The translations under genes were made by a program, and so were the position numbers. Shown one piece after another: positions 1,412 through 64,000 of a DNA stretch of 64,000 nucleotides. How positions within the stretch are numbered: position 1 is the first letter of the stretch; each line of letters opens with the position of its first letter. The notes below the pieces were generated by a model. That model made no database searches and had not been told where the DNA came from. It saw only the letters and a program-made list of their open reading frames with translations. Source of the stretch: Roseofilum capinflatum BLCC-M114 (GTDB lineage Bacteria > Cyanobacteriota > Cyanobacteriia > Cyanobacteriales > Desertifilaceae). The stretch is taken from contig NZ_JAQOSO010000120.1 in assembly GCF_030068505.1 (NCBI RefSeq), forward strand, positions 1 through 64,000, given 5' to 3'.

Positions 1412-1573
1412 ATGGACGATCGGGAAACTTTACCAAACCGTAACGCTTGGAAGGTGGGATTCACCCCCCAAGCAGAAATCTGGAATGGCCGTTTAGCGAT
1501 GGTCGGCTTTGTGGTTGCTCTAGGGATTCAAGTCGCTTCTAGTGATGGATTTCTAGGTGTTTTTGGATTTTAA
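1412..1573 (+). CDS. High-light-inducible protein (Hlip/SCP), 53 aa
   Basis: This small gene encodes a single-helix chlorophyll-binding protein of the CAB/ELIP/HLIP superfamily, which in cyanobacteria protects and supports photosystem assembly in thylakoids. The 53-aa product contains the diagnostic motif AEIWNGRLAMVGF (residues 21-33), with the Glu and Asn/Arg that bind chlorophyll, followed by one hydrophobic helix. A GAGGG ribosome-binding site lies about 8 bases before the ATG. It stands alone between the ABC ATPase and a hairpin repeat behind sigA. The family assignment is strong; the particular Hli paralogue cannot be stated. Confidence 0.9.
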   Translation: MDDRETLPNRNAWKVGFTPQAEIWNGRLAMVGFVVALGIQVASSDGFLGVFGF

Positions 1574-1624
1574 CCAAAAGACGGCAGTTGATTACAGCAG
1601 TTTTGATAATCGCTTATATATATC

Positions 1625-1688
1625 CCGATCCCCCTTGACTTCCTAAAAAAGGTCAATTTTCCGCAAGCGGATATCAAAGGGGGATCGG
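1625..1688. repeat. Inverted repeat with 12-bp arms, possible bidirectional terminator
   Basis: The arms CCGATCCCCCTT (1625-1636) and AAGGGGGATCGG (1677-1688) are perfect reverse complements. The interior holds a smaller palindrome (TTCCGCAAGCGGA). It lies between the convergent Hlip and sigA genes, so it could end transcription on both sides, although no clear T-run follows. The CCCCCTT.AAGGGGG style is common among cyanobacterial dispersed repeats. Confidence 0.6.
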
Positions 1689-2891: not shown

Positions 2892-3477
2892 GCCGCGTTC
2901 CTCATGCTCCTTTAAATATCTTAAGAAATCAAGTTGAGAAATTGTCTTGGTGAGTATTTCTTCACCATTCTCTACCAACAAACCTTTCAAGTTTAACAAT
3001 ACTTGAGAGATCTGTGGGCCAGATTTTAGAAAATTCCAGGGTTCTCTCTAGTTTCTCTCCTCCAGGAAGTCTGGGGGAGAGACCCTAAACTTTTCTGAGA
3101 GGGTTCACTGACCCCTACTCTATAAAGGCTCCCCCGATCCGGCTACACCAGCATACTCAAAAATCAAGATACTCTGGGTCTTTGGCTAAATTAGCCATTT
3201 GGGTACTGGAGTTTTACCAGGGAGTTAAATACAAGGGGAGTAAAAGTTAGGGTTGGCTTTGTCGTACTACAAAAACACGAAAATGTAGTGGTTTTTGTAG
3301 ATGGACGCTACTAGGGTAGAACCTTACGGTTAACCAGCAATTGAATTGCCCTAGGGATTTCAATTGCCGCCTATTTTCTGTTAAGTTAACTCACTTTTAC
3401 CCAAAATGGGGGGGGCAATTAGGTTAAGTTAATTGACAAATTTAACGTTTTAGCGGCAAGGTCTGGCTCTCTGGATT
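2892..3477. other. Long leader/intergenic region upstream of sigA
   Basis: About 590 bases lie between the sigA start and the end of the next gene, with no convincing gene. Two inverted repeats stand out: CTACAAAAAC/GTTTTTGTAG (3267-3276 and 3291-3300) and GCAATTGAA/TTCAATTGC (3337-3345 and 3359-3367). Promoters of sigA genes in cyanobacteria are often multiple and lie far upstream, so this region probably holds them, but I could not fix a -10/-35 pair. Confidence 0.5.
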
Positions 3478-36741: not shown

Positions 36742-36797
36742 CTTGTAGTGCTTAGGGTCTAAGGCTTCAAGCTGTACTTCATAGAAGAGAGAAACGC

Positions 36798-36941
36798 TAT
36801 ATAGCAAACCTAAATGAGTTATGTAATGGCTGCCCCTCATCCCCCAGCCCCGAGAAGGGGAGCAGAAGTCCCTCTCCCGTGGGAGAGGGATATAGGGAGA
36901 GGGCATTTCCAGTTGCACAACTCATTGAGACTAGCTATATA
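36798..36941. mobile_element. MITE-like element, TATAGC...AATGAGTT family (copy 1)
   Basis: The left end (TATATAGCAAACCTAAATGA then GTT) and right end (AACTCATTGAGACTAGCTATATA) share inverted TATAGC and AATGAGTT parts. The interior has the common cyanobacterial segment CCCTCTCCCGTGGGAGAGGG. A second copy is at 39967-40188. It has no coding capacity. Confidence 0.65.
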
Positions 36942-36942
36942 C

Positions 36943-37054
36943 CCCTCTTCTGTCACTTTCTAAAAAAGGGGCTTCAAACCCTTATTCTTTCGTTAGCGAT
37001 CGCGGGCTGTAACAACGGAAATTCGTTAGAATTTCCAAGAGTGACAGAAGAGGG
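36943..37054. mobile_element. MITE-like element, CCCTCTTCTGTCAC family (copy 1)
   Basis: Perfect 14-bp terminal inverted repeats (CCCTCTTCTGTCAC, 36943-36956, and GTGACAGAAGAGGG, 37041-37054) enclose about 84 bases. A second copy with an internal tandem duplication is at 46818-47016. The element could be mobilised in trans by an IS transposase; none is in the window. Confidence 0.75.
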
Positions 37055-39966: not shown

Positions 39967-40188
39967 TATATAGCAAACCTAAATGAGTTATGTAATGGCT
40001 GCCCCTCATCCCCCAACCCCTTCTCCCGCAGGCGCTGCCCTGCTTGCCCTGAGCGAAGTCGAAGGGAGCGAAGTCGAAGGGAGAAGGGGAGCAGAAGTCC
40101 CTCTCCCGTGGGAGAGGGATTTTCCGCCAAGCGGACATGAAAGGGAGAGGGCATTTCCAGTTGCACAACTCATTGAGACTAGCTATAT
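39967..40188. mobile_element. MITE-like element, TATAGC...AATGAGTT family (copy 2)
   Basis: Ends match copy 1 (36798-36941) over the outer 50 bases on the left and 40 on the right. The interior has about 70 extra bases, including a doubled GAGCGAAGTCGAAGGG, and a short GCCAAGCGGACATGAAA insert. It abuts the next element. Confidence 0.65.
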
Positions 40189-56038: not shown

Positions 56039-56542
56039 ATGCATCTTTCTCTTGACCTACCCGATGCACAAGCGACCAAGGAATTGGGAATTAAACTCGG
56101 TCAAATTCTCGCCCCTGGAAGCGTTGTCCTCTTCAATGGGGATTTGGGTACGGGTAAAACTACGTTAATTCAGGGACTGGGTAAGGGACTGGGGATTGAG
56201 GATCTCATCGACAGTCCCACCTTTACCCTGATTAATGAATATGCCGATGGCAGAGTACCCCTCTACCATTTCGATCTCTATCGCCTCAGTCCAGCTCAAG
56301 TGCCTAACCTCAATCCAGAACTCTATTGGGAAGGAATAGAAGTCCCTCCTGGTATTGTGGCTATTGAGTGGGCCGAAAAGCTCCCCTATTCTCCCCCAGA
56401 GGTGTTGATCTTAGATCTCAGCTACCAGGGTGACCAAAGACGGGTTGAGTTGTGGTCTAAAGGGCCGTTAGGAAAAGCTGCTCTAGAAGCTATTGCCCAA
56501 GAAGAAGGCAAGAGGCAAGAGGCAATAGGCAATAGGGAATAG
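56039..56542 (+). CDS. tsaE: tRNA threonylcarbamoyladenosine biosynthesis protein TsaE
   Basis: TsaE is the ATPase partner of TsaD/TsaB in making the t6A37 modification of ANN-decoding tRNAs. The 167-aa protein has Walker [11 protein letters not shown] (residues about 34-43), a TsaE switch region [11 protein letters not shown], the YHFDLYRL motif and the conserved Trp/Glu (VAIEWAEKL). The last about 12 residues ([11 protein letters not shown]) and the stop are encoded by the start of a heptameric repeat array. Confidence 0.93.
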
Positions 56543-56700
56543 GTAATAGGGAATAGGGAATAGGCAATAGGGAATGGGCAATAGGGAATGGGCAAAAGGC
56601 AATAGGCAAGAGGCAAAAGGCAAAAGGCAATAGGTAATAGGCAAGAGGCAATAGGCAATAGGTAATAGGCTATTTCCCCATTCCCCCATTCCCCCACTCC
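56506..56700. repeat. Long heptameric repeat array (GGCAATA/GGCAAGA/GGGAATA/CCCCATT)
   Basis: About 195 bases made almost wholly of 7-base units: GGCAAGA, GGCAATA, GGGAATA, GGTAATA and GGCAAAA, then CCCCATT/CCCCCATT. It begins inside the tsaE gene and ends just before the stop of the amidohydrolase gene, filling the whole space between convergent genes. Confidence 0.9.
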
Positions 56701-62563: not shown

Positions 62564-63355
62564 CTAAAACATCCATTCCAGACCAATACTTACTCGACTG
62601 TCTTTGCGATCGCTAGAATTCTGCTTTTCAATCTCCGTTGCTAACCGCCATCGCTCCGTTAGAGCATAACCCATCGAGAGGGTTGTTAAACCGATTTCTG
62701 TGCCACTTCCAGGATTGACAAACGTTTGAGACAGGGATAAATCTGTACCGCCTCCCCGTGAGGGAATCAGGGTCAGTCGAACCCCTAAGTTAACCCCTCC
62801 CCTTGAATAATCGGGGGTTCCCAGATGATGATAGCCTAAAACGGGAGCTACGTTAAAATATCCCCCTAGGGGTAATAAATGATAATGGAGATCCAGAGAT
62901 AGGTGCGATCGCTCCCCCCCAAACGATCCCTCATACCCCGCACTCACACTTAACCCCGTTTTCCCCAGCCACCAATCTTCCAACCCCACATGAAACCCCC
63001 CCAAATGCTCCGAGGAAGGAAACTGGGAATACCCCGCTCGTACTCGCGTCGGAAGACTCGGATCAGTTTGGATCTCCTCCAGCACATTCGGCACATCCTC
63101 TTGCCAACGTTGTAAAACCGGAGACTCTTCTAAAACCTCTGGCGGCACATCAACCTCATCAGCATAGGCGGCGATCTGAATTCCCCATAGTCCCAGCAGA
63201 GATCCCAGAATGAGATAGAGGAGAGATTTTGCCCTCTCCCTATATCCCTCTCCCACAGGAGAGGGACTTCTACTCCCCTTCTCCTGCGGGAGAAGGCTTG
63301 CCCTGAGCGAAGCCGAAGGGGGCTGGGGGATGAGGGGCAACCGTTGATAACTCAT
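62564..63355 (-). CDS. Exported outer-membrane-type beta-barrel-like protein with a repeat-derived N-terminus
   Basis: The conserved part (from about residue 47) has a signal peptide (LLYLILGSLLGLWGIQIAAYA) and then beta-rich sequence with alternating aromatic residues and a final WMF, as in outer-membrane barrels (SRVSIGLEWMF). The first about 43 residues (MSYQRLPLIPQPPSASLRAS, then PSPVGEG) are encoded by a MITE-like repeat at 63228-63369. A GTG within the repeat (about 63253, VGEGYRER) would give a normal signal peptide directly. Substrate or partner unknown. Confidence 0.65.
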   Translation of the reverse strand: MSYQRLPLIPQPPSASLRASLLPQEKGSRSPSPVGEGYRERAKSLLYLILGSLLGLWGIQIAAYADEVDVPPEVLEESPVLQRWQEDVPNVLEEIQTDPSLPTRVRAGYSQFPSSEHLGGFHVGLEDWWLGKTGLSVSAGYEGSFGGERSHLSLDLHYHLLPLGGYFNVAPVLGYHHLGTPDYSRGGVNLGVRLTLIPSRGGGTDLSLSQTFVNPGSGTEIGLTTLSMGYALTERWRLATEIEKQNSSDRKDSRVSIGLEWMF

Positions 63356-63369
63356 TTGAAAACGCTACA
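63228..63369. mobile_element. MITE-like element, TATAGCGTTTTCA family (copy 2) overlapping a gene start
   Basis: It shares the right end CTCATTTGAAAACGCTA (63351-63369) and interior CCCTCTCCCACAGGAGAGGG and CCCCTTCTCCTGCGGGAGAAGG with the copy at 40188-40345. The other end runs into the coding region of the neighbouring gene, so the end of the element is not clear. It supplies the upstream sequence and perhaps the start codon of that gene. Confidence 0.65.
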
Positions 63370-63383
63370 TAGCCTATTAAACC

Positions 63384-63421
63384 CAACAAAAAGGGTCTGC
63401 CAACAGTGACAGAACCCTTTG
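63384..63421 (-). terminator. Rho-independent terminator of acsF
   Basis: Read on the minus strand, AAAGGGTTCTG and CAGACCCTTT form a stem (arms 63410-63420 and 63390-63399, with a small bulge) followed by TTTGTTGGG. It lies 22 bases behind the acsF stop. Confidence 0.7.
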
Positions 63422-63441
63422 ACCTCATGAAAACAATCAAA

Positions 63442-64000
63442 TTAAAGGACAGCGCCTTCCATCTGAGTCGTATCAACCGGCTTCATGAAATACAGTTTGA
63501 TGAACTGCACGCCATTAGACAGATAATGAGGAAGCTTTTGCAGAGGTTTCAAGAACTTGGGACTGCTAGAAGCATCAATTTCCCGCAACTTCTTATTGTT
63601 CTCGACGCAAAGATCCAAATATTCATAGAATTTAGGATTCTCTACATCTAACATAACCGGGAATACCCGACCCGCCGTTTCATTGGTTTTCTTAATCACG
63701 TAAATATCATATTCACGAGCATCCAAACCAATAGACGCATAGAAATCTGACCGTTGAATATCGTTCAGGAACATGGTCGCAAACACCGACAACAGGAAGA
63801 AGCGACTCCAAAGTTTAGCTTTCCAATCATTGAGAATTTGCGGCTGAGATTTCATGATGGCATCAAAGAAATCACCATGGCGGTTTTCATCCTGACACCA
63901 ATTTTCAAAGAAGCGGAAGATAGGATAAATTCTATCTTCAGGGTGTTGTTCTAAATGGCGATAGATGGTGATATAGCGCCAGTAGCCAATTTTCTCAGAC
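63442..64000 (-). CDS. acsF: Mg-protoporphyrin IX monomethyl ester (oxidative) cyclase AcsF, C-terminal part (runs off the window)
   Basis: AcsF is the diiron enzyme forming the isocyclic ring of chlorophyll. The frame enters the window at 64000 with [20 protein letters not shown], continues with [20 protein letters not shown] (the diiron Glu/His ligands in ENRHGD), and ends in [20 protein letters not shown]. It is part of the 5' truncated gene, about 186 codons present and about half of the protein missing. The product is membrane-associated with cyclase partner Ycf54 in other cyanobacteria. Strand is minus; a terminator follows. Confidence 0.93.

Follow-up and report, generated by a model that had tools for sequence, protein, structure and literature searches.

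We analyzed a 64,000-nucleotide stretch of the genome of Roseofilum capinflatum BLCC-M114 (contig NZ_JAQOSO010000120.1, positions 1–64,000), referred to here as the window, with its genome as G000. Towards the end of the window a gene for a predicted outer-membrane-type β-barrel protein lies on the minus strand behind acsF, and a repeat runs from the intergenic region into its reading frame. The features of this region, together with a second copy of the same repeat family in the window, are:

36797–36945, plus strand: same-family copy with both terminal inverted repeats
62564–63355, minus strand: open reading frame from the repeat's ATG, 263 amino acids, with 42 repeat-derived codons followed by signal peptide and β-barrel
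62567–63160, minus strand: mature protein, a predicted 10-stranded β-barrel whose nearest solved folds are outer-membrane barrels
63161–63229, minus strand: remainder of the Sec-type signal peptide, KSLLYLILGSLLGLWGIQIAAYA, with an AYA cleavage motif assigned by inspection
63230–63371, minus strand: focal MITE-like repeat copy, 142 nt, comprising the left terminal inverted repeat and the core, the right one missing
63254–63256, minus strand: GTG of the palindromic core, the less favoured start, which folding predictions place inside a hairpin
63338–63340, minus strand: TTG inside the repeat, in frame
63353–63355, minus strand: ATG in the left terminal inverted repeat (TAGCGTTTTCAAATGAG), preferred start codon
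63386–63413, minus strand: terminator-like hairpin followed by a run of T, behind acsF and some 30 nt ahead of the ATG of the repeat, with similar sequence in relatives
63442–64000, minus strand: acsF (Mg-protoporphyrin IX monomethyl ester cyclase), upstream neighbour and synteny anchor

The signal segment contains a hydrophobic stretch with a mean value of 2.09 over 15 residues, its AYA motif resting on inspection only. The structure model of the protein (12 sequences) exhibited 10 strands with a mean pLDDT of 74.4 and a pTM of 0.66, where residues 1–29 fell below 50. The 30 best PDB structure matches, at E ≤ 0.001, were titled as outer-membrane proteins or as complexes holding one, with KdgM in first place (E 5.3e-5), and the superpositions were weak (best row TM 0.41/0.51, rmsd 8.7), so that the model supports the fold class of outer-membrane β-barrels and no closer kinship. 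At the sequence level the gene product yielded no Pfam or NCBIfam family at E ≤ 0.001 and no PDB match up to E 1. A sigma-70-like promoter was sought at 63200–63480 and none was found.

On the minus strand the focal repeat begins with TATGTAGCG at 63371 and ends with GGGAGAGGGCA at 63230; a previous sequence-only reading had recognized the repeat correctly but placed it at 63228–63369. The last repeat codon, GCA, joins the signal peptide directly, the next codons AAA TCT CTC encoding Lys-Ser-Leu, and no ATG, GTG or TTG of non-repeat origin lies between the repeat end and the signal peptide. The repeat continues from the intergenic region into the gene at 62564–63355, as that reading had noticed, and does so in frame into the signal peptide. 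The encoded peptide PSPVGEGYRER, described there as repeat-like, is indeed encoded by other copies as well (e.g., L216, L243, L244). The focal copy carries one of the two terminal inverted repeats, the right arm being absent at 63230, and its sequence is that of a truncated family member; some other copies comprise the core alone. Its end, TAGCRTTTTYAAATGAG, is of the less common type, found at 11 sites in G000 with ≤1 mismatch. Within the window the focal repeat matches 36852–36905 (54 nt, 96% complementary) and 40080–40120 (41 nt, 95%).

Full copies of the family measure about 150–180 nt, too small for a transposase gene, and are numerous, with both ends inverted (TATAGC...AATGAGTT) around a GC-rich, palindromic core. 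The core word GGGAGAGGGATATAGGGAGAGGG occurs at 182 sites (78 + 104) with ≤3 mismatches in the 5.37 Mb genome, a count for which the reversed-pattern control is void, since the word is mirror-symmetric and reads the same backwards. We therefore judged the copy number on the E-values of the genome search, where it is far above chance: a 191-nt repeat query gave at least 64 matches at E ≤ 0.001 from the 40 of 262 first-look candidates that were scored. The copy clusters surveyed, which are part of all copies, amounted to 120 in G000 (120 partly overlapping loci), 48 in Roseofilum halophilum BLCC-M91 (G003) and 28 in R. acuticapitatum BLCC-M154 (G005). Mobility is evident at locus L081, which is filled in G000 and empty in both G003 and assembly UBA2566 (G002); at this single compared site, the flanks of which are somewhat diverged, TA stands on both sides of the element in G000 and once in the two empty genomes. 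Based on this filled and empty site with its TA duplication, and on the inverted ends, the family is MITE-like by its sequence characteristics.

Both terminal inverted repeats carry an ATG reading inward (ATGAGTT). Among 84 ends of own-genome copies, the frame was open to the end of the core from 33 of 46 ATGs in left arms and from 15 of 30 in right arms, with no recognizable far end for the other 8. An open frame from the arm ATGs is the default in this family; we dropped it as evidence of coding, and for the same reason gave little weight to an in-frame difference of 24 nt between G000 and G005.

Homologues of the gene were present in 50 of the 59 genomes searched, loci being given for 30. 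Five of 41 homologue loci (L031–L071) carry the repeat, corresponding to three species, two of them represented twice. G003 and G005 share with G000 the same repeat and the same right junction, GGGAGAGGGCA/AAATCTCTC, and the homologues in G001, G002 and G004 are devoid of the repeat and have their own ATGs, in line with the earlier proposal that the 5′ end comes from the repeat and the native start is gone. The gene follows the end of acsF in G000, G003, G005, G001 and G002 by alignment and in G004 by inspection, making the insertion site orthologous across all six genomes. A repeat-less homologue with the same N-terminus, named beforehand as the observation that would speak against this proposal, was looked for in the 41 loci, and the N-termini of the repeat-less homologues differ from the repeat-derived one. 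A sequence resembling a second dispersed repeat, CACGGAGAAACACGGAG, lying at the same place in G001 and G002 was also considered and dropped, as it has one copy in each and one near-copy elsewhere in G005.

Past the repeat, pairwise dN/dS values were 0.103 (G000/G003), 0.126 (G000/G005) and 0.124 (G003/G005), compared with 0.138 for the repeat-less pair G001/G002. The gene downstream of the repeat is under purifying selection and not dead, and translation should thus start inside the repeat. The in-frame starts of G000 ahead of the mature protein are an ATG, a TTG and a GTG at −41, −36 and −8 from the last repeat codon, all within the repeat, and the next one after it is a GTG at +28. An extra GTG lies within the hydrophobic core of G003, at +12, and G005 has an extra TTG at −44, upstream of the repeat. 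Since the only ATG, GTG or TTG codons of G000 before the end of the signal peptide are located in the repeat, the codon positions argue for a repeat-derived start unless a rare codon is used.

To compare the candidate codons, we used RNA folding predictions for four assumed RNA 5′ ends, which gave an opening cost of 4.4–6.6 kcal/mol for the ATG region and 26.1–26.7 kcal/mol for the GTG region; as naked-RNA predictions these energies form a comparative scale only, the first ATG of G001 itself costing 14.6 kcal/mol. In these predictions the GTG codon resides in a strong hairpin with an unpaired probability of 0.00. Because it is predicted to be buried in this way, the GTG is not favoured over the ATG at 63355, which we infer to be the start codon. 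Neither codon has a well-placed Shine–Dalgarno sequence; this, the negative promoter search and the terminator-like hairpin just upstream count against the start proposed here. The sequence-only reading had pointed to the GTG and to a purine-rich stretch upstream of it; both exist, the stretch being GGAGAAGGGGAGTAGAAG, but 16 nt separate the end of its GGGGAG from the GTG, a gap exceeding the usual Shine–Dalgarno spacing.

Initiation at the GTG (63256) would still be donated by the repeat, with nine repeat-coded residues, VGEGYRERA, preceding KSLLYLIL and the frame further upstream being accidental. Such a start would give a signal peptide of normal length, whereas the 42-residue n-region that follows from the ATG is unusual for a Sec signal, and would produce an N-terminus resembling the MGESVKSL of G001 and G002. 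The three species do not differ over the 27 nt that run from the GTG to the end of the repeat, and copies of the family commonly have an open frame starting at the ATG anyway. Furthermore, the substitutions between ATG and GTG are mostly amino-acid-changing: the single one in the focal extension between G000 and G003 changes the amino acid, as do 3 of the 4 between G000 and G005, so that the extension gives no sign of protein-level constraint in its sequence. Nevertheless, the opening cost of about 26 kcal/mol for a codon paired in the folded RNA, the lack of a well-spaced Shine–Dalgarno sequence and the case of a pentapeptide-repeat protein described below, in which a long repeat-coded extension seems to be translated, render the GTG an unlikely start.

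We regard as very improbable that the signal peptide is not translated as such, with a start behind it (the GTG at codon 28) or at a rare CTG or ATT within it and the repeat serving as 5′ untranslated region. Codons of this kind exist, but the signal-peptide segment shows dN/dS values of 0.13–0.19 among the repeat-bearing species, albeit over few sites, and an outer-membrane barrel starting past its signal would not be exported. That the loss of the native start has left a pseudogene in the repeat-bearing species is hardly credible, given an intact frame and dN/dS values of 0.10–0.13 in three lineages, similar to the repeat-less pair.

Low divergence of the repeat was likewise dropped as evidence of coding constraint, as the effect is general across family sites. 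Between G000 and G003 the focal repeat differs at 2 of 143 or, in a second alignment, 1 of 143 sites, and the gene at 75 of 666. We compared 15 pairs, two of them representing the focal site, at sites picked by their similarity to the repeat, which introduces a bias; in 10 of the 13 others the repeat was less diverged than its flanks, in one of these hardly so (0.033 vs 0.037), with interspecies divergences of 0–6% for the repeat vs 3–11% for the flanks. The repeat was more diverged than the flanks in two of the 13 (L013/L164, 0.233; L022/L155, 0.194), possibly due to misalignment or a different copy, and for the pair at L089 the examined position contained no interval.

Frames extending at least 70 codons beyond a repeat copy numbered 18 in G000, 16 in G003 and 4 in G005. 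In an earlier listing of 26 such frames, 18 had an ATG no more than 20 codons past the repeat, where translation of the repeat itself is therefore not required. The other eight comprised the focal gene, a pentapeptide-repeat protein, one dnaB intein copy and five short frames; in two of these short frames a GTG or TTG follows the repeat by no more than 20 codons. The focal gene and the pentapeptide-repeat protein have in common that the signal core follows directly after the repeat.

The gene for the pentapeptide-repeat protein, a second protein of exported type, is found at L200 (G003), L201 (G005) and L202 (G000, where it is cut by the contig end). It starts with MNIYPLKLFVLFLFIF in G001 and G002, which have no repeat there, and with MNRYRIFQQVLPSSPNPL...GRGHHFLKLFVLFLFIF in G003; we read the ATG shown as the native start from the relatives and not from annotation. 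On this reading, the repeat of G003 and G005 is an in-frame insertion that separates the native ATG from the signal core. The insert contains no in-frame ATG, GTG or TTG in G003 and one TTG in G005. Between the two species it shows in-frame gaps of 24 and 3 nt and a dN/dS of 0.235 (S 6.0/34.8, N 5.0/112.2; Fisher p = 0.02 on rounded counts), and after the insert dN/dS values are 0.072–0.100 among G000, G003 and G005. The in-frame gaps and the dN/dS of the insert suggest that translation can pass through the repeat and that n-regions of 50–60 residues are tolerated.

The repeat itself, the shared junction, the lack of other standard starts in G000, the selection on the gene and the repeat-less relatives can all be read from the sequences. 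To account for them we propose that the start of a conserved gene for an outer-membrane-type β-barrel received the insertion of a miniature inverted-repeat element, most simply in a common ancestor of the three Roseofilum-type species. The right arm of the element and the gene's own start codon would then have been lost, with the core becoming fused in frame to the hydrophobic core of the signal. The gene could have survived because the element brings a start of its own, the ATGAGTT reading inward in the terminal inverted repeat, from which the frame is usually open through the core when read from the left end. That the element inserted, that native start and right arm were lost and that the gene lives on with a start codon of the element, most likely the ATG at 63355, is in our view probably correct. 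The order of these events, common ancestry over interspecies exchange, the ATG over the GTG, and export with a long n-region are what we infer. With the ATG as start, the 42 repeat-encoded residues would form an extra-long n-region ahead of an ordinary Sec signal peptide, and the extended signal peptide would be removed on export.

In-frame fusions of MITEs with genes are known. RU-2 (YPAL) of Yersinia, a MITE-like repeat, constitutes residues 1–30 of YPO1552, a putative exported protein, and some of the signal peptide predicted for it, and YPO1552-like proteins of other genera are described as having signal sequences unrelated to RU-2 (passages on RU-2 in Delihas 2007, PMC2759123; PMC2229807). 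In contrast to RU-2, which according to these passages forms part of the predicted signal itself, the repeat described here would contribute start codon and n-region to a native hydrophobic core. The present case further differs in its cyanobacterial host, homologues in 50 of 59 relatives, a junction common to three species and measured selection. The palindromic elements of Rickettsia (Ogata et al. 2000, as summarized in the review PMC10969869) are short mobile elements of about 150 bp lying in frame within genes; likened by description, they are within-ORF insertions, whereas here a lost native start appears to be replaced by the element's own. From a cyanobacterium, Anabaena PCC 7120, the same review lists MITEb and MITEe, which are said there to code for proteins or peptides whose function is unknown, again a likeness by description. 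Correia/NEMIS, ERIC and RUP elements, compared in the same manner, occur in other hosts and share size (about 100–200 bp), terminal inverted repeats with terminal TA and strong RNA hairpins with the family studied here, some of their open frames being fused to genes according to the passages on them in PMC2229807. At title level, our literature search returned no report of such a case in cyanobacteria, and no paper found in it joined Rickettsia palindromic elements with a signal peptide. The present case adds the conserved gene without native start, the junction in three species, the measured selection, the start within an inverted repeat and a second gene of like kind.

The locus provides a natural case in which a mobile repeat takes over the start of a conserved, selected gene, with repeat-less relatives for comparison. 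It suggests why such fusions survive, as the added peptide precedes a cleaved export signal and the mature protein would be unchanged. It is possible, if somewhat doubtful, that the element acts more generally as a portable start-codon cassette with the Sec n-region as tolerant landing site, the exported proteins of this clade repeatedly gaining repeat-encoded N-termini that are removed on export. As a caution, automatic start calling near such repeats can be wrong.

Several further associations of the repeat with genes were observed, the gene names being assigned by inspection. A copy lies in frame in an apparent intein region of dnaB at L254 (G000, 1051–1138), L144 (G003, 1496–1627) and L192 (G005, 3177–3260), representing a mobile repeat inside a mobile intein in three species. 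An NdhD-like NADH dehydrogenase subunit ends in repeat-encoded sequence, APHPPTPFGFAQGKPSPAGEGE, at both L012 (G000) and L143 (G003). At L099 a copy (1501–1651, minus strand) interrupts a PIN-domain-toxin-like gene, the downstream fragment of which is open from the repeat's ATG. The window also contains another dispersed repeat, AGCGAGCAAGATGCTCGCACTCC, with variants (33630, 37189, 49928, 53615, 61797), and an array of AATAGGG-like units at 56503–56675.
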